Of a DNA stretch of 64,000 nucleotides, positions 566-10,896 are shown one piece after another. Numbering within the stretch: position 1 is the first letter of the stretch; each line of letters starts with the position of its first letter. The stretch is from Leeuwenhoekiella aestuarii. Lineage in GTDB: Bacteria > Bacteroidota > Bacteroidia > Flavobacteriales > Flavobacteriaceae. The translations under genes and the position numbers were made by a program. The stretch spans positions 310,001 to 374,000 of the forward strand of contig NZ_QOVJ01000003.1 in the NCBI RefSeq assembly GCF_004104055.1, given 5' to 3'. The notes beneath the pieces are model-generated. The model searched no databases and was not told the origin of the DNA. It worked only from the letters and a program-made list of their open reading frames with translations.

Positions 566-749
566 TCTTATCTAGATTTAGTTGTGCTGCAATATACGTG
601 ATTTTAAGTTTTCTTAGAAGTTATGTTAGCTATATCAAGTGGGCTCAATATTTGACAGAATATAATGTAAGTTTAAACCTATGTTAAAGACAAACCTGTA
701 GTAACGGGTTCAGAACTATTTTAGTATTTTGAATGTAAAGATTAAGGAT

Positions 750-3125
750 ATGGAAGATTTAAATGAATTTCCACTACAGATACAGTTGAGTTTCGCTAAA
801 GTTTTAGAGATGCTTAAAAAGCGTATGCACCAATCTAAAAATGAGGTGACTAAGAATTATTTAAAATCTATTCTGGAATATGCAGAATCTTTTCCTGAAC
901 TTATAGATGGTATTGAAGACTCTGAGAAGATTGATGAACTCCAAGAAACTCTAAGTACGCTACTTGATAATCTCTTTCCCGCTGCCTTAACTAAAAATGA
1001 AATTAAAGCAGCTACAATTCCTTTTAAGAATAAGATATTCAATCCTACCCGAAGATTTGCTTCAATTATTGAGGATGCAGGAGAAGATTTTGATTTAGCT
1101 ATTAGAAATCTGGATCCTAATTATTACTACATCATAGGATGTGTGGTTATTTTGAATAGTTATTATAACTACGATATAGATTTTAAAAGACCTATGTTTT
1201 ACGAGATTCCTGATAAAAATGGAGTTATACGTACTTACAGAGCGTCTATGAATGCAGATTTTACATTCTGTGAACCTACAGATATTTCTATTGAAATCAC
1301 TCCGGAAATCGTAGACAAGTTGATAGAAAATGGAGACAATGTGTCTATGTGGAAAGAATATTTTCCGCCTCAAAGCTGGATTCTTAAGGGTATTACTATT
1401 TTAAACCTTACAGACGTTACGGTTGACGATTCTATATCAGACTTAAAAAGTACATTACTTTCTAAAAAAAATTTAAAGCAGGGAAATACTGCAAAACAGT
1501 TTCAGAATATATTCAGTTCAATTTTTAATATTCCTGATTTGCGTGTTGGGTTTACAGAATTTGATAAGGATGAAGATCTATTTACGAGAATGAGTGACGG
1601 TGATGCAACAAGCTTTATTCTTAATGAGAAAACTCGCTCTGATTGTCGTCAAAGTATGTGCGACGGCTCTTATAATACGTTGATACACGATAAAAAATAT
1701 TTTGTAATACCCGATGTGGAAGATTATGCTAGAAAGAATGAAAATGAAGTACTAGCTCAAAATTTATTAAAACAGAATATTAAAAGCTGTATGCTTGCTC
1801 CAATAACATTGGGTAATGAATTACTTGCCGTTCTAGAATTGGCATCTTCTAAAAGAAACTCTTTACATAGTCTTAATGCAACAAAATTAGACGATGTGTT
1901 ACCCTATATTATCTCAACTGTAGAACGAAAAAAGTTTGAAGAAGAGAATAGGATAAAGGCAGTTATTCAAAATGAATGTACAAGTATTCACCCTAGTGTA
2001 TTATGGATTTTTGAAGAGGAAGCTAAGCGATTTATCAATAATCAAAATGCGGGTAAATTTGCTGCATTTAAGGATATAGCCTTTGAAGATGTTTATCCAC
2101 TTTATGGGCAGATAGATATTGTTGGTTCTTCAGATGAGCGTAATAAAGCCATTCAACAGGATATTTTGATTCAGTTAGAGATGGTTCACGGTATTCTCGA
2201 TCTGGCATTAGAATCTAATCCAATACCTATTTATGAGCAGGTAAAGTTTAGAATTCAAGAGTTTACTGAAGAGATAAAAGAAAGATTAAATGCCAATAGC
2301 GAAAGCGAGGTTTTCGCATTACTTCAAGAAGAGGTAAATCCGTTATTGAGTCATCTTAATACCAAAATACCTGAGCTAAAAAGAGAAATTGATAATTATA
2401 AAGAATCTATTAATAAAGATACTGGTTTGATTTATCAAAATCGTAAAAATTATGATGATACGGTTCAGCTCATTAATCAAAATCTAGCAACGTTTTTAGA
2501 TAGAAAACAACAAGAAGCGCAGCAAATTTTTCCGCATTATTTTGAACGTTATAAGACAGATGGTGTAGATCACAATATCTATATTGGTGCATCTATGACT
2601 CCTAAGGAGAAATTCAATAAAGTGTATTTATACAACCTTAGATTGTGGCAGCTTTGTACGATGTGTGAGATGGAAAATCACTTCTATCATAAACAAGAAG
2701 GAGCAGAATTGCAATTAGATGCTGCTTCATTGATTCTTGTTTTCAGCACAACTTTGTCTATTAGATATAGAATGGATGAGAAGAAATTTGATGTTGACGG
2801 TACATATAACGCACGATATGAAATTATCAAAAAGCGTATAGATAAAGCTCTTGTTAAAGGAACAGATGAGCGTATAACACAAAAAGGTAAAATCGCCATT
2901 ATTTATTCTCAGGATAACGATGCAGAAGAGTATACACGTTATATTAACTACTTGCAGCGTAAAGAATATTTAGGATCTGAAATTGAATATCTTGAACTTG
3001 AAGATGTTCAAGGAGTAGTAGGACTTAAAGCTATACGAGTAAATGTTTTATATACTTCAAACTTACCGCGTAGTAATGATGAAGAAACAATTACTTATGA
3101 AGATTTAATGGAGATCTTAGATTAA
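750..3125 (+). CDS. GAF-domain protein of about 790 residues
   Basis: A soluble cytoplasmic protein without signal peptide or membrane segments. A GAF-like domain lies at about residues 250-395, including the segments GFTEFDKDEDLFTRM and APITLGNELLAVLELAS. Long helical regions with coiled-coil character follow (about 480-620), then a C-terminal alpha/beta region. It has no kinase, cyclase or HTH domain that I can recognise, so it may be a ligand-responsive scaffold; the ligand is unknown. A TTG at 729 would add seven residues, but ATG at 750 is preferred. It ends in a bidirectional terminator shared with the convergent HD-PycTM gene. Family assignment rests on the GAF pattern only. Confidence 0.75.
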   Translation: MEDLNEFPLQIQLSFAKVLEMLKKRMHQSKNEVTKNYLKSILEYAESFPELIDGIEDSEKIDELQETLSTLLDNLFPAALTKNEIKAATIPFKNKIFNPTRRFASIIEDAGEDFDLAIRNLDPNYYYIIGCVVILNSYYNYDIDFKRPMFYEIPDKNGVIRTYRASMNADFTFCEPTDISIEITPEIVDKLIENGDNVSMWKEYFPPQSWILKGITILNLTDVTVDDSISDLKSTLLSKKNLKQGNTAKQFQNIFSSIFNIPDLRVGFTEFDKDEDLFTRMSDGDATSFILNEKTRSDCRQSMCDGSYNTLIHDKKYFVIPDVEDYARKNENEVLAQNLLKQNIKSCMLAPITLGNELLAVLELASSKRNSLHSLNATKLDDVLPYIISTVERKKFEEENRIKAVIQNECTSIHPSVLWIFEEEAKRFINNQNAGKFAAFKDIAFEDVYPLYGQIDIVGSSDERNKAIQQDILIQLEMVHGILDLALESNPIPIYEQVKFRIQEFTEEIKERLNANSESEVFALLQEEVNPLLSHLNTKIPELKREIDNYKESINKDTGLIYQNRKNYDDTVQLINQNLATFLDRKQQEAQQIFPHYFERYKTDGVDHNIYIGASMTPKEKFNKVYLYNLRLWQLCTMCEMENHFYHKQEGAELQLDAASLILVFSTTLSIRYRMDEKKFDVDGTYNARYEIIKKRIDKALVKGTDERITQKGKIAIIYSQDNDAEEYTRYINYLQRKEYLGSEIEYLELEDVQGVVGLKAIRVNVLYTSNLPRSNDEETITYEDLMEILD

Positions 3126-3173: not shown

Positions 3174-4379
3174 TTACATCATCCAGAATGCGATGATAAA
3201 ACTTATTACAGAGATGATTATTCCTACCATAAAAACGGTGTAGGTTTTTCTAAGCAGCATGTATTTTTTGTTCAGAACAACACCTAAAAGGTATAAATCT
3301 TTAGTAAGTGCTTCATAGATATAATCTTTATCGTAGATGATCTCGTTAATAGCCCACTGATATTGATCGTATTTCATTTTGTGAAAGTTCCCAAAGAATA
3401 AAATATTCACTTGTTTTTTCTTCACTTGCTCTCTTGTAAACTCTCCGGAAGTGACATTAGGACGCGTAGAAAGTATAGACATGATTATTGAAGCTACACT
3501 AAATATAACTAACACAAGAGTTGGTATCAATAAATGGCGGTTACTAGGTGCATCTAGCTTAGGAATCATATTAGATAACGCCAGTGAAATAATAATAGCA
3601 TTTACTGAAAGTAAAATGTTTGCTTTTGTATCTGCAATATCACTTAATTTGATGTGGTTTCTTAAAGTTGTACGATATAACGTTTGTACCCCGCGATCCG
3701 GACTTTCATCTTTAAATTTGGCCTTAAGTTTGGCTTTAACTTCTTCCTTCCGGTATTTTTTCTTCTTTTTCTTTTCTTTTTTCAATAGAGAAATAAGGTT
3801 CTCATCCTTTTGGTTTTTCCAATTTCTGGCAGCATAATCAGTATAGAATTTATGCTTATGAGTAAACATCTGAATGTTTTCTTCACGCCATTCTGCTGGA
3901 GTAAACTTTTTAGTTTCTGTTAAGAGTAATTCTTGTCTTAAAAACTCGCTAGTTTGAGCATAATATTCTTTAGCAAAATGGGAATTATCTGCATCTTTTA
4001 AGATGCGCTCTAATTCATTCTGAGGTTCTTCACCCATTTTTGTTGATGCGATAAGTTCAACAACAAGTTGTTGTGTTTCGGCGTCAACATTCTCTTTTTC
4101 CATATAATCCTTAGCAATCTCAATACTAGCTTCTTCATGACCGTCTCGAGTCTTGGTATAACCCGTATCATGCATCCATGCAGCAAGAATTAAAGCATCT
4201 TTCTGTTTAACATTAATTTGAGAATTTTCGGCTATTTCTTTAGTACTTTTAACAACTCTTACGGTATGATTGTAATTGTGATATAGATAACTGTTAGGAA
4301 GTTTTTCCTTAAAAAGTTCTAGAACAAATTGATCTGCTTTTGAAAAAGTACCCTTTGTTTTTTCTGCTGTTTCAGCCAT
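3174..4379 (-). CDS. HD phosphohydrolase fused to a PycTM-like (DUF5706) membrane domain
   Basis: Residues about 30-180 form an HD domain. The metal-binding pattern is visible as H38, H70-D71 (WMHDTGY) and an acidic D129/D131 (LKDADNSH). A very basic linker (about 200-225, Lys-rich) leads to a C-terminal domain with three predicted membrane segments (about 253-275, 286-308, 379-401). Its conserved TKANILLSVNAIIISL block resembles the PycTM/DUF5706 family, whose members act as membrane-damaging effectors in Pycsar anti-phage systems. No nucleotide cyclase gene is in the window, so a defence role is inference; a housekeeping nucleotide hydrolase is equally possible. The gene is divergent from the outer-membrane phosphoesterase, and a minus-strand -7 box TAATTTTG lies at 4424-4431. 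Confidence 0.8.
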   Translation of the reverse strand: MAETAEKTKGTFSKADQFVLELFKEKLPNSYLYHNYNHTVRVVKSTKEIAENSQINVKQKDALILAAWMHDTGYTKTRDGHEEASIEIAKDYMEKENVDAETQQLVVELIASTKMGEEPQNELERILKDADNSHFAKEYYAQTSEFLRQELLLTETKKFTPAEWREENIQMFTHKHKFYTDYAARNWKNQKDENLISLLKKEKKKKKKYRKEEVKAKLKAKFKDESPDRGVQTLYRTTLRNHIKLSDIADTKANILLSVNAIIISLALSNMIPKLDAPSNRHLLIPTLVLVIFSVASIIMSILSTRPNVTSGEFTREQVKKKQVNILFFGNFHKMKYDQYQWAINEIIYDKDYIYEALTKDLYLLGVVLNKKYMLLRKTYTVFMVGIIISVISFIIAFWMM

Positions 4380-4436: not shown

Positions 4437-7400
4437 ATGATAAAAAATAACATACTTCTAACACTTGTAATCTGCTTGTTTCTCTCGGCTTGCGCCACTT
4501 ATACTTCCAGATACAAAGAAGATGTTGAACAAGGGATTTATCCATCAGCAAAAAAAATAGATCGTACTTTTTATTTACTAGGTGACGCCGGTAATTCTGA
4601 AATGGGCGAAAGCACCGAGGGGATTAAATTATTTAAGAAGTTTTTAGATAAAGCAAATGAGGAGTCATTTGCTATTTTTTTAGGTGATAATATTTATCCG
4701 GTAGGGATGCCTCCCGAAGGAACAGAAGAGCGACCTCTTGCTCAACACAGGCTTGATGCGCAGGTTGAGACTTTTGAAAAATATGGAGGAACGCCCATAT
4801 TTATTCCCGGAAATCATGACTGGTATAGTGATCATTTACACGGTTTAAATAGAGAAGAAGAATATTTGAAAAAAGTAACCGGTTTAGATGATATTTTTCT
4901 ACCTAAAGATGGTTGCCCACTAGTGAGTTATGATATTAATGAGTCTGTACATATGATCCTTTTAGATACACAATGGTATTTAGAAGATTGGGACAAAAGC
5001 CCGGAGATTAATGATAAATGTGATAATATTAAAGATCGGGAGAAGTTTTTTATTGAGCTTGAAAATGAGATTAAGAAAAATCAGCATAAGACTCTGGTAA
5101 TAGCTATGCATCACCCAATGTACACAAACGGAGTGCACGGTGGTAAATTTGCTTTAGACAAACATTTATATCCATCTCAACAGAAAATTCCTGTACCCAT
5201 CTTAGGTTCTTTAGTAACTCAGATTAGAACACAGGGAGGAGTTTCAAAACAAGATCGTTTTAATGAGAAATACAATGAGTTAATGAAGCGTTTGCGTGTT
5301 TTAGCTCAGGGACACAATAAAATTATTTTTACTTCTGGGCACGAACATGGCTTGCAGTACATTGAGCACGATGAGGTTAGACAGATCGTTTCGGGGTCGG
5401 GTTCTAAATCATCTTATGCGTATTTAGGTAATGATGGTTTGTTTAGTTCAGATTATGAAGGCTTTGCTCAGTTAGATATTTTTAAAGATGGTTCTTCTTG
5501 GGTTCGTTATTACGGAACTAATCAAGAAACCGGAGAACCTGAATTGTTTTTTCAGAAAGAAATATATGGCCCTGATAAGGTAGAAGACTATTCTCATTTA
5601 CCTACAGATTTTCCTGCCACGGTAAAAACTTCTGTTTATTCTATAGAAGAAACAGAGCGGTCAGACTTTTTTGAAAGAGTATGGGGCGAGCATTACCGCG
5701 AAGTTTATGGCAAAAAAGTGACAGCTCCTGTAGCTCTACTAGATACACTATATGGAGGTCTTGAAGTTGTGCGACCAGGTGGGGGGCATCAGACCGTTTC
5801 TCTTCGGCTTAAAGATAACACCGGTAGAGAATACAATATGAGAGCGCTACGTAAAAGTGCGGTTCAGTTTTTACAAAAAGTTATTTTAAAAGAAAATGCT
5901 GATGCAGAAGAGGATTTAAAAAATACATTACCAGAATCTCTGATTCAGGATTTTTATACATCTGCACATCCATACGGAGCTTTTGCAGTTCCGCGTTTGA
6001 GCAATGCTGCACAGGTTTTACATACAACACCTAGATTATATTATGTGCCAAAACAACCTGCTTTAGGTCTGTATAATGAAGATTATGGCGATCAACTTTA
6101 TATGATCGTTGAGCGACCGGTTAAAGAGTACAGTGGGGAGACTTTTAATTATCCTGATGATATAGAGAGTACAGATGATATTCTAAGCAAATTGCGCAGT
6201 GATGAGTCTAATGTGGTAGACGAGCCTACTTATATACGTGCCCGTATGTTTGATATGCTTATAGGAGATTGGGATAGACATAACGACCAGTGGCGTTGGG
6301 CGGAATTTAAAACTACAGATGGTAAAGATGTATTTGTACCCATTCCTAGAGATCGTGATCAGGTATTTACCAATTTTGATGGAGCTATTCTAGATGTTGC
6401 CCGTACTTTATTTGGCATGGCAAAACAGTTTCAGGTTTATGATAAGAATCTGGATGATATGAAATGGTTTAATAATGCAGGTATCAAGCTTGATCGTGCT
6501 TTGGCACAGCAGTCGGGAAAAGAAGTCTGGTTAGCTCAGGCAGAGTACATAAAAGAGCATGTTACAGATGATGTTATAGAAGAAGCTTTCACAGATCTTC
6601 CACCCGAGGTTAGTAATGGTCAATCTATACAGGATATAAAAGAGAATTTAAAAGGGCGGCGTGATAACTTAGTCAATATAGCAGAGTCATTTTATGATTA
6701 TCTGGTACAACTACAAATGGTTGTAGGTACAGATAAAGATGATTATTTTGAGATAACTCGTGGAAACAATCAGACTACTATAAAAGCCTGGCGAATAAAA
6801 GATGGAGAGAAGGCAGATTTAATACATGATCGCACTTATTTTTCTGATGAAACTAAACAGATTTGGATTTATGGTCTTGATGACGATGATGTTTTTGAGG
6901 TAAAAGGAGAAGGAAACAACCCAATTTTTACCCGAATAATCGGTGGGCAGAATAATGATATCTATCGTATTAAAAGTGGAAGAAAGGTTAAAATTTACGA
7001 TCACGAGAGTTTACCCAATACTATTGAAGAAAAGGGAAAGGCGAATTTTAGGCTCACAGATGTATATGATTACAATACCTATGATTATCAGAAACAATTC
7101 TTACGCTCTAATGTTTTAACTCCAGCATTTGGTTATAACCCAGACAATGGTATAAGTCTGGGACTTTCTGATGTATACACTGTACAAGGTTTTAAACAGA
7201 ACCCTTTTTCGCAGCAGCATCGCTTTAGTGTGCTGTATTATTTTGCAACAAGTGGTCTTGACTTTTCGTATAAAGGAGAGTTTGCGGGTATTATGAATGA
7301 TTGGAATTTAGTTTTAGCGGGTAGATATACTACACCTAATTATGCCAGAAACTTTTTTGGCTACGGGAACGAGTCAACCAATAATGATGAAGAGTTTGGA

Positions 7401-8144
7401 ATGAATTTCAACCGGGTTCGTTTGAGCCGTATGGAAGCTTCTGTAGGGCTTTTACGTAATTCTGATTATGGTAGTACGTTTTCAGTGAAGGCAAATTTTG
7501 AAGGGATTAAGGTGGCAGATAACAACTTTAGATATATTGACATCGTAGATATCATAGAGCAGGACAAGCGTAAGTATTTTGCAACTTTAGATGCCACTTA
7601 TGAATATCACAGTAAAGATAATTCGTTAGCTCCCACACGAGGGATGGATTTTATACTTAACGGTGGGTTTACAAATAGTCTTAGCGAAACAGGGAAACGG
7701 TTTTTGTACTTAAATCCAAGCATTGGTTTTTATAACGCGATAAGCGCAAATAGAAAGCTGGTGCTTAAGACTTCTGCGAGTAGTCAGTTTAGATTTGGAG
7801 ATAATACTGAATTTTATCAGGCGGCAACGTTGGGGCAAAATAATGGATTACGCGGTTATCGTTTTGACCGTTTTACAGGTGAACGAGCTTTTGCAACTTC
7901 AGGAGATTTAAGATATGCTTTCAACACATTTAAAACAGGATTTTTACCGCTGCAGATAGGAGTTTTTGGAGGTTATGATTTAGGTAGAGTTTGGTCAGAT
8001 TTTGATAACAATTCAGAGAAATGGCACGACTCATATGGTATAGGTTTTTGGGTAAATAGTGCAGATGCGTTGAGTGGTACATTCAACCTTTTTAAATCTA
8101 GTGAAGGCTACCGCGTTTCATTTGGATTTGGTTTCAATTTTTAA
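4437..8144 (+). CDS. Lipoprotein with metallophosphoesterase, kinase-like region and Omp85-type barrel
   Basis: The signal peptide has lipobox LSAC (C19). A calcineurin-like phosphoesterase covers about 45-330, with GDAG (D50), GDN (D84), GNHD (N126-D128), HH (H225-H226) and GHEHG (H302, H304). Residues about 430-720 look protein-kinase-like: a Gly-rich strand near 440, NMRALRK near 460-473, DWDRH at D611-H615 and PIPRDRDQ near 635-642. A long outer-membrane barrel follows (about 880-1235), with the Omp85 signature LRGYRFDRFTGERAF and an aromatic C-terminus (GFNF). At 1235 residues it is much longer than a plain phosphoesterase. It probably sits in the outer membrane. The first and last domains are clear; the kinase-like reading is inference. 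Confidence 0.85.
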   Translation: MIKNNILLTLVICLFLSACATYTSRYKEDVEQGIYPSAKKIDRTFYLLGDAGNSEMGESTEGIKLFKKFLDKANEESFAIFLGDNIYPVGMPPEGTEERPLAQHRLDAQVETFEKYGGTPIFIPGNHDWYSDHLHGLNREEEYLKKVTGLDDIFLPKDGCPLVSYDINESVHMILLDTQWYLEDWDKSPEINDKCDNIKDREKFFIELENEIKKNQHKTLVIAMHHPMYTNGVHGGKFALDKHLYPSQQKIPVPILGSLVTQIRTQGGVSKQDRFNEKYNELMKRLRVLAQGHNKIIFTSGHEHGLQYIEHDEVRQIVSGSGSKSSYAYLGNDGLFSSDYEGFAQLDIFKDGSSWVRYYGTNQETGEPELFFQKEIYGPDKVEDYSHLPTDFPATVKTSVYSIEETERSDFFERVWGEHYREVYGKKVTAPVALLDTLYGGLEVVRPGGGHQTVSLRLKDNTGREYNMRALRKSAVQFLQKVILKENADAEEDLKNTLPESLIQDFYTSAHPYGAFAVPRLSNAAQVLHTTPRLYYVPKQPALGLYNEDYGDQLYMIVERPVKEYSGETFNYPDDIESTDDILSKLRSDESNVVDEPTYIRARMFDMLIGDWDRHNDQWRWAEFKTTDGKDVFVPIPRDRDQVFTNFDGAILDVARTLFGMAKQFQVYDKNLDDMKWFNNAGIKLDRALAQQSGKEVWLAQAEYIKEHVTDDVIEEAFTDLPPEVSNGQSIQDIKENLKGRRDNLVNIAESFYDYLVQLQMVVGTDKDDYFEITRGNNQTTIKAWRIKDGEKADLIHDRTYFSDETKQIWIYGLDDDDVFEVKGEGNNPIFTRIIGGQNNDIYRIKSGRKVKIYDHESLPNTIEEKGKANFRLTDVYDYNTYDYQKQFLRSNVLTPAFGYNPDNGISLGLSDVYTVQGFKQNPFSQQHRFSVLYYFATSGLDFSYKGEFAGIMNDWNLVLAGRYTTPNYARNFFGYGNESTNNDEEFGMNFNRVRLSRMEASVGLLRNSDYGSTFSVKANFEGIKVADNNFRYIDIVDIIEQDKRKYFATLDATYEYHSKDNSLAPTRGMDFILNGGFTNSLSETGKRFLYLNPSIGFYNAISANRKLVLKTSASSQFRFGDNTEFYQAATLGQNNGLRGYRFDRFTGERAFATSGDLRYAFNTFKTGFLPLQIGVFGGYDLGRVWSDFDNNSEKWHDSYGIGFWVNSADALSGTFNLFKSSEGYRVSFGFGFNF

Positions 8145-8176
8145 GATTAAATTTTTCGCCGTTAGGCAACTTATAT

Positions 8177-9748
8177 ATGAAAGAAATAGACAATATTGAT
8201 AATACAGAGGGTTTAGAGAAGCGTGAACGCGTAGACACAATCAATCTAGAGTATCTCAAGGTTAAAGACTATGAGGAGCTCAAAGAGATCATGATTGCTG
8301 TGTATCCTAATATTACAGATCCATACTGGAAGAAAAAAGACATTCAAAAACTGATATCAATTTTCCCCGAAGGTCAGGTTGTGGTAAAAGTCAATGGTGA
8401 GATTGCCGGCTGTGCGCTTTCAATCATTGTAGATTATGATAAGTTTACAGATACGCATACCTATATGCAAATAACAGGTGACGAGACTTTCAGTACTCAC
8501 ACACCTAAAGGAAATGTCCTTTACGGAATAGAGATATTTATTTCGCAACAATATCGAGGGATGCGTATAGGTCGTCGTTTATATGACTATCGTAAAGAAT
8601 TGTGCGAGAACCTCAATCTGGAGCGTATTGTTTTTGGCGGAAGATTGCCCAATTACCATCAGCATGCAGACAAACTTTCTCCTAAGGCTTATATTGAGAA
8701 AGTAAGATCACGTGAGATTAACGATCCGGTTCTTGATTTTCAACTGAGTAATGATTTTCACGTAAAACGAATCATCACAAATTATCTGGAAGGAGATAAG
8801 CAGTCTAAAGATTATGCGGCACTTCTGGAATGGGATAATATTTATTATCAGAAACCTGCAAAAAAACCAAATGCAATCAAAACCGTGGTGCGTTTAGGCC
8901 TGGTGCAATGGCAGATGCGAACGTATAAGAACTTTGAAGAGCTTATAGAGCAAGCAGAGTATTTTATAGATACCATTTCGGGTTATCGCTCAGATTTTGC
9001 TTTGTTCCCAGAGTTTTTCAATGCACCGCTTATGGCTGCCTACAATCACCTTTCTGAGCCTGATGCTATTCGTGAACTTGCAAAATATACAGAGCGTATA
9101 AGAGATCGTTTCTCTGAACTGTCGGTAAGTTATAACATCAATATTATAACAGGGAGTATGCCTTATATTGAAGACGGCACACTTTATAATGTTGGCTTTT
9201 TATGTAAACGTGACGGAACAATAGAGAAGTTTTATAAATTACATGTAACTCCAGATGAGGCTAAAGCCTGGGGAATGAGTGGAGGAGAAGTGCTAAAAAC
9301 TTTTAATACAGATTGTGGTAAAATAGGAATTCTTATTTGTTATGATGTAGAATTCCCAGAACTGGGACGTTTGCTTGCAGATGAAGGTATGGATATTCTT
9401 TTTGTTCCCTTCCTAACCGACACCCAGAATGGGTATAGCCGTATACGTCATTGTGCACAGGCACGAGCGATTGAAAACGAATGTTACGTGGCGATTGCTG
9501 GTAGTGTGGGTAATATTCCTAAAGTGCATAATATGGATATGCAATTTGCCCAAAGTATGGTCTTAACACCTTGTGATTTTCAGTTTCCTACAAACGGGGT
9601 GAAGGCTGAAGCTACGCCGAATGCCGAGATGATTCTTGTAGCAGACGTTGATCTTGACCTTTTAAAAGAATTGAATCAGTTTGGTAGTGTTCACAATCTC
9701 ATAGATCGTAGAAAAGATTTATTTCAGTTAAAATGGAAGAAAAAATAA
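8177..9748 (+). CDS. GNAT acetyltransferase / carbon-nitrogen hydrolase fusion
   Basis: The N-terminal half (about 20-215) is a GNAT fold with the acetyl-CoA loop YRGMRIGRRL at 126-135. The C-terminal half (about 235-515) is a nitrilase-superfamily domain with a complete catalytic triad: E279 (FPEFFN), K354 (FYKLHVTP) and C388 (LICYDVEFPE). Such fusions are known in bacteria, usually as amidases or deaminating hydrolases of unknown substrate. It is cytoplasmic, with no signal peptide. It starts 32 bp after the outer-membrane lipoprotein gene and ends 5 bp before a convergent gene with no obvious terminator between. The N-terminal 20 residues are charged and probably disordered. The substrate cannot be told from the sequence. 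Confidence 0.88.
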   Translation: MKEIDNIDNTEGLEKRERVDTINLEYLKVKDYEELKEIMIAVYPNITDPYWKKKDIQKLISIFPEGQVVVKVNGEIAGCALSIIVDYDKFTDTHTYMQITGDETFSTHTPKGNVLYGIEIFISQQYRGMRIGRRLYDYRKELCENLNLERIVFGGRLPNYHQHADKLSPKAYIEKVRSREINDPVLDFQLSNDFHVKRIITNYLEGDKQSKDYAALLEWDNIYYQKPAKKPNAIKTVVRLGLVQWQMRTYKNFEELIEQAEYFIDTISGYRSDFALFPEFFNAPLMAAYNHLSEPDAIRELAKYTERIRDRFSELSVSYNINIITGSMPYIEDGTLYNVGFLCKRDGTIEKFYKLHVTPDEAKAWGMSGGEVLKTFNTDCGKIGILICYDVEFPELGRLLADEGMDILFVPFLTDTQNGYSRIRHCAQARAIENECYVAIAGSVGNIPKVHNMDMQFAQSMVLTPCDFQFPTNGVKAEATPNAEMILVADVDLDLLKELNQFGSVHNLIDRRKDLFQLKWKKK

Positions 9749-9753
9749 TATTT

Positions 9754-10896
9754 TTAATTTTTGATTGGCAATAATTGATAGTTATCATCATCAATTTCCA
9801 CGACTTCAAAGGTTGAAAACAGCCAGTCGCTTTGCTCTTTGTTCAACTGTTTTATAACATCCCGTTCGAAGGTCTTATTCACACGGGCATTTGTAAGATC
9901 TACATCTAGAATTTTAGACTTTAAGAGGCTCACATTTCTCAAATCTGCCATTTTTAAATTTGCGTTTTGCAAGTTGGCATGATCTAAGATCGCATTCTGA
10001 AGTTTTGCAGATTCAAGATTGGCATTATTGAAGCTCGTATAGGTCAGATTTGTATTAGCTAAGTCAGTATTACTAAAGTTTGCATTTTCAAAATCGGTGC
10101 CGTTAAAGTTTGAATTTCTTAAATCAGCATAAGAAAGATCAATGTTCAACAGGTCATAACCTTTAAGTGAAATGTTTCTCAATTCTGCATAGGTAAAATC
10201 TAAGCGCTCAATTAGTTTTCCGTTAGTACGGGTTCTTGTGGTGCTGTTGAGGTTTACTCCTGTTTCTAGAAGAGAAATTAAAAGATAACCCCGTTCTGGG
10301 CTAGTAACGTGAGCTATAAGACTGTCGTTTTCGAGGTATTTGTAGGGTTTCAGCATTTTGCTCAAAGCAATAAGTCTTCCTGCAGTGGCGTCTTCTATTT
10401 TGTTCTGAGAACTGGCGGCAACATCATTACTTATTTCTTTCAGCATATTATCCATTATCAAAAGGGTCTGACCGCGACGATCTGCTTCTTGTAAATAGGT
10501 TTGCTGATCCAGACGTGTATTTTGTTGCTGAAACATTTTGCTCTGACCGGTAATCAATGTATTCTGTTTGGCGAGATAATAGGTTTGAAAAATTAATAAG
10601 ATAGAAGGTAGAACAGCTGTTAGAACCAGTAAAAATCCCACACGTGTAAGCCTTATTATAATACTGCTCAGTAACTCTGAAATGGTTTCTCTAGATACGC
10701 GTTGTTGTTGCGCCATTTCGTCTAAAAACCGCTCAATACTTTTCTTAAGTTGGGCCCCTAGAATCATACCTGAAGAGCGTTTTAAGAAAGTCCAACCCAG
10801 TTTGCGGCGCTGTTTCTTTTTAGACTCTTGCTTGTCGAGTTTAGCTTTTAGCTTTTCATTTTCGGCTTCAAGTTCAGAAAGACGTTCTTCGATCAT
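9754..10896 (-). CDS. Membrane-anchored pentapeptide-repeat protein
   Basis: Residues 1-35 form a short coiled coil (ERLSELEAENEKLKAKL). One or two hydrophobic segments occur at about 86-106 (VGFLLVLTAVLPSILLI). A helical region with glutamines follows (110-160). Residues about 231-345 form a right-handed pentapeptide-repeat helix with many A(D/N)LxN units (YADLRNSNF, NANLESAKL, HANLQNANL, MADLRNVSL). Pentapeptide proteins can mimic DNA or act as membrane signalling scaffolds; nothing here tells which. No enzymatic motif was seen. Its start ATG is preceded by about 70 bp before the propeller lipoprotein gene. Confidence 0.78.
   Translation of the reverse strand: MIEERLSELEAENEKLKAKLDKQESKKKQRRKLGWTFLKRSSGMILGAQLKKSIERFLDEMAQQQRVSRETISELLSSIIIRLTRVGFLLVLTAVLPSILLIFQTYYLAKQNTLITGQSKMFQQQNTRLDQQTYLQEADRRGQTLLIMDNMLKEISNDVAASSQNKIEDATAGRLIALSKMLKPYKYLENDSLIAHVTSPERGYLLISLLETGVNLNSTTRTRTNGKLIERLDFTYAELRNISLKGYDLLNIDLSYADLRNSNFNGTDFENANFSNTDLANTNLTYTSFNNANLESAKLQNAILDHANLQNANLKMADLRNVSLLKSKILDVDLTNARVNKTFERDVIKQLNKEQSDWLFSTFEVVEIDDDNYQLLPIKN

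Follow-up and report, generated by a model that had tools for sequence, protein, structure and literature searches.

Enzymes fused to outer-membrane barrels of the Omp85 superfamily have been described in the 'Metallo' subfamily and in PlpD. In the passages of Heinz and Lithgow (2014) on these proteins, the 'Metallo' members carry a PF00149 domain, termed a metalloprotease domain, N-terminal to a barrel said to resemble that of the 'noNterm' group, which has no N-terminal extension, and in PlpD a patatin enzyme is fused to an Omp85 barrel, with a POTRA domain and release of the lipolytic domain (PMC4104836). CotH, a spore-coat kinase, is likened to the Golgi kinase Fam20C in the part of a review that treats it (PMC12189002). 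This work concerns a gene of Leeuwenhoekiella aestuarii at positions 4437-8144 of a stretch of 64,000 nucleotides (the window; contig NZ_QOVJ01000003.1, 310,001 to 374,000), whose 1235-residue product, as modelled, is almost certainly composed of a phosphoesterase (MPE), a kinase-like domain (KIN) and an Omp85-type barrel (BARREL), with a strand-rich linker (ROLL) before the barrel (Table 1). Among its relatives the catalytic-type residues of MPE and KIN are lost reciprocally, a pattern suggestive of selection on both sites.

The protein resembles the 'Metallo' subfamily, with which it is likened by description and not by member lists, in having a PF00149 domain ahead of an Omp85 barrel, whereas that subfamily is described there as a metalloprotease fusion with no kinase mentioned, and no word starting with 'kinase' or 'phosphatase' stands in the main text of that article (PMC4104836). 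With PlpD (type Vd), as the same article presents it, the protein shares the fusion of an enzyme to an Omp85 barrel, but differs from it in its lipid anchor, its linker without POTRA and its two enzyme domains. A preliminary description of this DNA had stated that no function was described for such a combination; the phosphoesterase-Omp85 pairing had already been described, while a kinase-Omp85 fusion was not found in print in the open-access literature, nor was a phosphorylating enzyme of the bacterial outer membrane among the matches listed there. What is new here is the comparative evidence for use of both sites, and not the phosphoesterase-Omp85 pairing itself.

Modules of the 1235-residue protein

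MPE is the sole Pfam match above cut-off in the protein (Metallophos, PF00149, residues 48-244, 28.3 bits against a curated cut-off of 21.5), and phmmer of the whole protein against PDB sequences gave no match. Its motifs GDAG (49-52), GDNIY (83-87), GNHDW (125-129), MHHP (224-227) and GHEH (301-304) correspond to GDxG, GDxxY, GNH, xxH and GHxH, which we take to be the five metal-site motifs of purple acid phosphatases (PAPs), and the metal-site or catalytic roles of positions 50, 84, 87, 126, 127, 225, 302 and 304 are likewise presumed from PAPs. Two AlphaFold2 models, one of residues 380-790 (alignment of 70 sequences, pLDDT 87.9, pTM 0.88) and one of residues 37-1235 (61 sequences, pLDDT 86.1, pTM 0.82), were compared with solved structures by Foldseek and VIA-align 2 (VIA). 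Modelled in this way, MPE is a purple-acid-phosphatase-type phosphoesterase with predicted phosphatase activity, since it shares with mammalian-type PAPs both the five motifs and the fold (human PAP 2bq8: VIA Z 28.6, rmsd 3.0, 269 aligned residues, 21% identity), whereas its lipid anchor and its fusion to KIN and a barrel set it apart from them.

The order of elements in the KIN model is kinase-like: a Gly-rich turn between two strands is followed by a strand ending just before K473 and, further on, by a helix (model positions 217-230), the DWDRH loop, a strand, a second strand and RDRDQ. D613 lies between the helix and the next strand, at the place of a catalytic loop, and D639 and D641 directly after the following strand, at the place of a metal site; from these places in the fold, the motif residues would be expected to cluster in space. 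The VIA matches of KIN included PI4KII (Z 15.2, rmsd 4.1, 249 aligned residues), CotH 5jd9 (14.3, 4.2, 257), CtkA (13.0, 5.3, 241), mTOR (11.2, 3.8, 232), HipA (10.9, 4.0-5.4, 209-229) and the Golgi casein kinase Fam20C (10.7, 4.8, 232), with PI3K-like and mTOR-like kinases also present at Z of about 10-11, and CtkA was the top Foldseek match (E 1.1e-5). The kinase-like fold anticipated for the middle region is thus recovered by model, Foldseek and VIA, with D613 and D639/D641 where a kinase would have them.

By family profiles, the middle region has no match above cut-off in Pfam or NCBIfam. In the Pfam scan of the 1235-residue protein at E up to 1, neither PF08757 (CotH) nor PI4K, Fam20 or other kinase families were among the matches, and PF07804 (HipA_C) was not listed; PF08757 reached at best 13.6 bits, against a cut-off of 23.8, in one of six stand-alone KIN relatives, and HipA_C reached 12.4 and 11.4 bits, against 30.5, in two of them. 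A KIN profile (140 segments from relatives and the query, of which the program's filter kept 108) was then set by hhalign against a profile of CotH proteins of the same phylum (42 segments found, those longer than 150 residues used). The score was 34.3, and the alignment placed DWD on the W-D loop of CotH and IPRDRDQ on its IPxDxDN, while the controls against the same CotH profile reached at most 20.7 for column shuffles (30, few in number), 14.6 for the reversed profile and 12.7-18.4 for the MPE, ROLL and BARREL profiles. The profiles of CotH and HipA, both known kinases, scored 36.6 against each other, and a smaller CotH comparison, from 20 loci and without controls, gave 39.1. A PDB profile match to enterochelin esterase was rejected as evidence (E 0.22). 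Because the score to CotH exceeds its controls and the score to HipA lies within its own, profile comparison indicates that KIN is distantly related to CotH in particular; it shares with the CotH spore-coat kinases the fold and, in register, the catalytic loop and DxD, but by score is not a member of PF08757. With type II PI4K, CtkA, HipA and Fam20 kinases it shares the fold, but it differs from them in having no kinase family in Pfam and, for HipA, in a profile score not above the controls.

The barrel has 16 long strands in the full model, and its closest solved structures are TamA (4n74: VIA Z 27.1, rmsd 2.9, 291 aligned residues) and BamA (Z 26.8), which agrees with the 16-stranded Omp85-type barrel first proposed. 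By sequence, NCBIfam Omp85_fam matches residues 1040-1235 (E 2.1e-12, 47.3 bits), far under its cut-off of 200, and PF01103 is not listed for the protein; the separate barrel gene of another locus (L109) gives 49.1 bits against a cut-off of 24, and L113 gives 47.6. One paralogue (L003) passes ShlB at 22.8 against 22.7 bits, and another (L002) has no Pfam match. Omp85 members carry a (V/L)RG(F/Y) motif, here represented by LRGY at 1138-1141. No POTRA-like helices are present in the full model, in which ROLL has short strands only; this speaks against membership of the BamA, TamA or PlpD groups, and not against the superfamily, because the 'noNterm' Omp85 proteins are also without an N-terminal extension.

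The preliminary description had read most of these motifs correctly from the letters: besides the five phosphoesterase motifs within residues 49-304, the lipobox LSAC with C19, GGGH (448-451) as the Gly-rich strand, NMRALRK (467-473), GDWDRH (610-615, with DWDRH at D611-H615) and LRGYR (1138-1142) are all present, and RDRDQ is present as well, at 638-642 instead of the 639-643 given for it.

Table 1. Coordinates of the modules and motifs of the gene, of its neighbours in the window, and of the corresponding separate genes at locus L109
Sequence	Feature	Coordinates	Strand	Basis or remark
Window	Whole gene, 1235 residues, ATG start	4437-8144	+	Lipoprotein signal, MPE, KIN, ROLL and Omp85-type barrel, in this order
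Window	Signal peptide with lipobox LSAC, C19	4437-4493	+	Mature N-terminus C-A-T-Y-T-S; sequence
Window	MPE, residues 40-375, predicted purple-acid-phosphatase type	4554-5561	+	Pfam Metallophos, motifs, VIA
Window	KIN, residues 405-765, kinase-like fold (model)	5649-6731	+	Model pLDDT 87.9, Foldseek, VIA
Window	Gly-rich turn G448-G450 to K473, predicted nucleotide-binding-type elements	5778-5855	+	Model, motifs, conservation
Window	DWDRH, D611-H615, catalytic-loop-like motif	6267-6281	+	Model, conservation, register with CotH
Window	RDRDQ, R638-Q642, metal-site-like motif	6348-6362	+	Model, conservation, aligned to CotH IPxDxD
Window	ROLL (strand-rich linker), residues 766-885, short strands	6732-7091	+	Full model
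Window	Omp85-type 16-stranded barrel, residues 890-1235	7104-8141	+	Model strands, VIA to TamA
Window	798-residue protein, weak GAF match (21.6 against a cut-off of 22.4 bits)	729-3125	+	In flanks of 57 of 79 loci
Window	HD domain and PycTM (Pycsar effector-type) membrane domain protein	3174-4379	-	Pfam; divergent neighbour
Window	GNAT acetyltransferase fused to carbon-nitrogen hydrolase	8177-9748	+	About 33 bases downstream of the gene
L109	KIN-ROLL lipoprotein	6051-7688		
L109	Phosphoesterase	7702-8913		Metallophos 35.1 bits
L109	Omp85 barrel	8910-10097		49.1 bits

Retention, reciprocal loss and separate use of the modules

For the comparison of sites, 154 full-length open reading frames were collapsed to 145 proteins differing in their last 900 residues, drawn from 43 genomes of the same-family set, the best hits of a genome-contig scan and a few other loci; the set leans to flavobacteria because the scan took the best 80 of at least 588 matching stretches. 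The L. marinoflava copy is 93% identical to the product of the gene in the window. Each protein was scored at the eight MPE positions named above and at four KIN positions (473, 613, 639 and 641). The eight MPE positions are all kept in 117 of the 145, and for KIN, K473 is kept in 144, D613 in 144, D641 in 143 and D639 in 134, which argues that the motifs of the middle region are not chance strings. Both sites are intact in 106 proteins, KIN only in 27, MPE only in 11 and neither in 1. The KIN-only proteins retain at most five of the MPE positions, none of the 145 retaining six or seven, and all 27 keep K473, D613, D639 and D641. Of the two domains, the damaged one has also diverged further: the ratio of MPE to KIN identity to the query is 0.99 where both are intact, 0.72 in the KIN-only class and 1.16 in the MPE-only class (Mann-Whitney 9e-16 and 4e-8, respectively, with kinship not corrected for).

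All 11 MPE-only copies stand in tandem with a KIN-intact, MPE-damaged copy, the named genera with such pairs being Aequorivita, Marixanthomonas and Marinirhabdus. In a quick LG+G4 tree on the ROLL and BARREL columns, loss of MPE required 8 or more changes and loss of KIN 2, and the 11 KIN-damaged copies form one clade, so that a single ancient event, retained in several genera, accounts better for the tandem pairs than 11 events would. Each of the 43 classified genomes keeps at least one intact MPE and at least one intact KIN; in four of them (G054, G027, G012 and G039) these lie only on different proteins, and the genome of the window holds one both-intact copy, that at 4437-8144, and two KIN-only paralogues. 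One further genome with a match (G047) was left out, its sole match being a barrel fragment with stops. The copy of another (G059) was counted as a 920-residue frame ending early in the barrel; at this locus (L027, 3417-7098, minus strand) the gene is split into frames of 920 and 232 residues, by an assembly error or a real break.

The pattern of loss may be read as the division of two needed activities between copies after duplication. That both enzyme sites are used follows as a well-supported reading from the neighbouring gene copies that divide them in some related species, a reciprocal loss that points to selection on both. The proposal of a phosphatase and a kinase in one chain stands to the extent that two catalytic-type sites are present and apparently under selection.

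The modules also occur apart. Matches were found in 44 of 60 genomes of the same family, that of the window included, and in 84 of 198 genomes across the phylum, some of these solely to MPE or the barrel; the KIN family was sought in this phylum, in viral contigs and in one genome-contig scan, and four loci (L231-L234) were left out of the analysis. Viral contigs gave no match in a search by six short peptide patterns of this single protein. Six of the 44 genomes have stand-alone KIN genes of 410-430 residues with an N-terminal hydrophobic segment, and in those at loci L014-L019 all checked catalytic-type residues are kept. Other architectures are KIN-ROLL-BARREL (about 850-950 residues), KIN-ROLL (498-570 residues), MPE-only and barrel-only. 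At one locus, L109, from a genome belonging to another family, KIN-ROLL, MPE and BARREL are encoded by three successive co-directional genes (Table 1). Among 25 shorter-architecture KIN proteins, a subset taken from chosen loci, 20 keep K473, D613, D639 and D641. Because KIN occurs without a barrel, in the proteins of 410-430 and of 498-570 residues, the kinase-like part appears to have a use of its own.

Place in the cell and competing explanations

Based on these comparisons, we propose with moderate confidence that the protein is an outer-membrane-anchored enzyme pair, in which a kinase-like and a phosphatase domain act on a shared or linked envelope substrate. Anchorage in the outer membrane would come from the lipid on C19 together with the Omp85-type barrel, and the PAP-type MPE, KIN and ROLL most likely face the periplasm. 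KIN, with a fold of the CotH/PI4KII/Fam20 class, could transfer a phosphoryl group to an envelope substrate, be it protein, lipid or glycan, MPE could dephosphorylate that substrate or one linked to it, and the barrel may anchor both enzymes or pass the substrate. Computation gives the folds, the motifs, the modularity and a loss pattern suggestive of selection on both sites; catalysis by both sites we infer from these, and that they act in opposition on one substrate is conjecture.

Several points weigh against this proposal. The main weakness is that a periplasmic kinase would be without an obvious donor, because ATP is not known in the periplasm. The kinship of KIN with known kinases is distant: the best Foldseek TM-score is modest (0.37 by query length), no Pfam kinase family lies above cut-off in a whole-protein scan at E up to 1, the hhalign probability of the match to CotH is 24.7%, and kinship to the HipA profile was rejected (score 18.0, against up to 22.9 for shuffles and 19.0 for the reversed profile). 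At least one of the four residues is missing from five of the 25 shorter KIN proteins: two of KIN-ROLL and two of KIN-ROLL-BARREL architecture, and a KIN-BARREL protein that was matched in part. The 11 tandem pairs do not count as independent cases, as the KIN-damaged copies form one clade, and MPE and KIN are not an obligatory pair in one chain, as 27 proteins have no phosphatase site and many relatives lack the domain.

A bolder form of the proposed enzyme pair, which we regard as tentative, is a phosphorylation switch in the outer membrane, wherein an unnamed kinase family and a PAP on one chain would add phosphate to an envelope component and take it off again, drawing on a phosphoryl donor other than cytoplasmic ATP, and duplicated copies would pair an active kinase and dead phosphatase with a dead kinase and active phosphatase. 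Fam20C and Fam20A, a kinase-pseudokinase pair, offer a comparison for such copies.

As to the side of the membrane, a lipobox-like Cys is present in 133 of the 145 relatives by a pattern loosened after inspection of the misses, the stricter first pattern giving 89. In Bacteroidota, lipoproteins of the cell surface have an acidic export signal following the lipid cysteine, according to the statements on this signal in PMC5080379. At +2 to +6, none of the residues is acidic in 104 of the 133 lipobox relatives, one is in 28 and two are in 1, and the protein of the window (C-A-T-Y-T-S) has no export signal of the K-(D/E)2 or SDDDD type there. The even strand number and the absence of POTRA argue that the enzymes most likely face the periplasm. 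The idea that the chain is threaded by its own barrel is not supported and was set aside, as there is no acidic signal for surface export after the lipid cysteine and the even strand number favours the periplasmic side. A type Vd-like self-exporter, whose barrel brings both enzymes to the surface to scavenge phosphate compounds with environmental ATP, would have a precedent in PlpD, a translocated enzyme fused to an Omp85 barrel in the account of PMC4104836, and in two distant relatives genes for a Porin_O_P porin, a CotH kinase and a PAP2 phosphatase lie near the KIN-barrel gene; we consider it unlikely, since the N-terminal lipid comes without the acidic signal, an even number of strands would by default leave the N-terminal part periplasmic, and the model has no POTRA, whereas PlpD, so far as that article describes it, has one.

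Similarly improbable in our view is that the kinase fold performs other chemistry, such as AMPylation, or senses a nucleotide or lipid, the phosphatase being the only classical enzyme. Kinase-fold enzymes with other chemistry exist, the extracytoplasmic place without known ATP would suit such a function, and the fold match is distant only; but the four KIN residues are retained throughout the KIN-only class of 27 and in 20 of the 25 shorter relatives, which argues for metal-dependent catalysis without deciding which chemistry is catalysed. Least probable is a factor of the BamA/TamA kind for outer-membrane protein assembly or lipid transport, with the enzymes as regulatory or structural additions, which the closeness of the barrel to TamA and BamA among solved structures would favour, but which sits poorly with the lack of a POTRA-like domain in the model and with the KIN proteins of 410-430 and 498-570 residues that have no barrel.

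Gene neighbourhood and wider meaning

Neighbours were counted at 79 loci of named genomes, from flavobacterial or Bacteroidia records, among the best 80 of at least 588. A gene for an HD-PycTM protein lies in the flanks of 68 of the 79, and in 65 of the 76 with a complete KIN gene, 52 of these being divergent and within 1 kb. The HD-PycTM gene also lies close to KIN-ROLL-BARREL genes in other families (L113, L122 and L175), and the protein at L175 is 36% identical to that of the window over 391 residues. The downstream GNAT-nitrilase gene was rejected as a functional partner, being in the flanks of only 2 of the 79 loci, both from Leeuwenhoekiella. At L174 (589-3552) and L175 (3164-6169), genes for Porin_O_P, a CotH kinase lipoprotein and a PAP2 phosphatase adjoin the KIN-ROLL-BARREL gene.

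To our knowledge, few enzymes phosphorylate anything outside the bacterial cytoplasmic membrane, where ATP is thought to be absent. With KIN, an Omp85 subfamily described as a metalloprotease fusion would gain a further domain, and kinase-like and phosphatase sites predicted at the outer membrane, divided between neighbouring copies, make extracytoplasmic phosphorylation directly testable.

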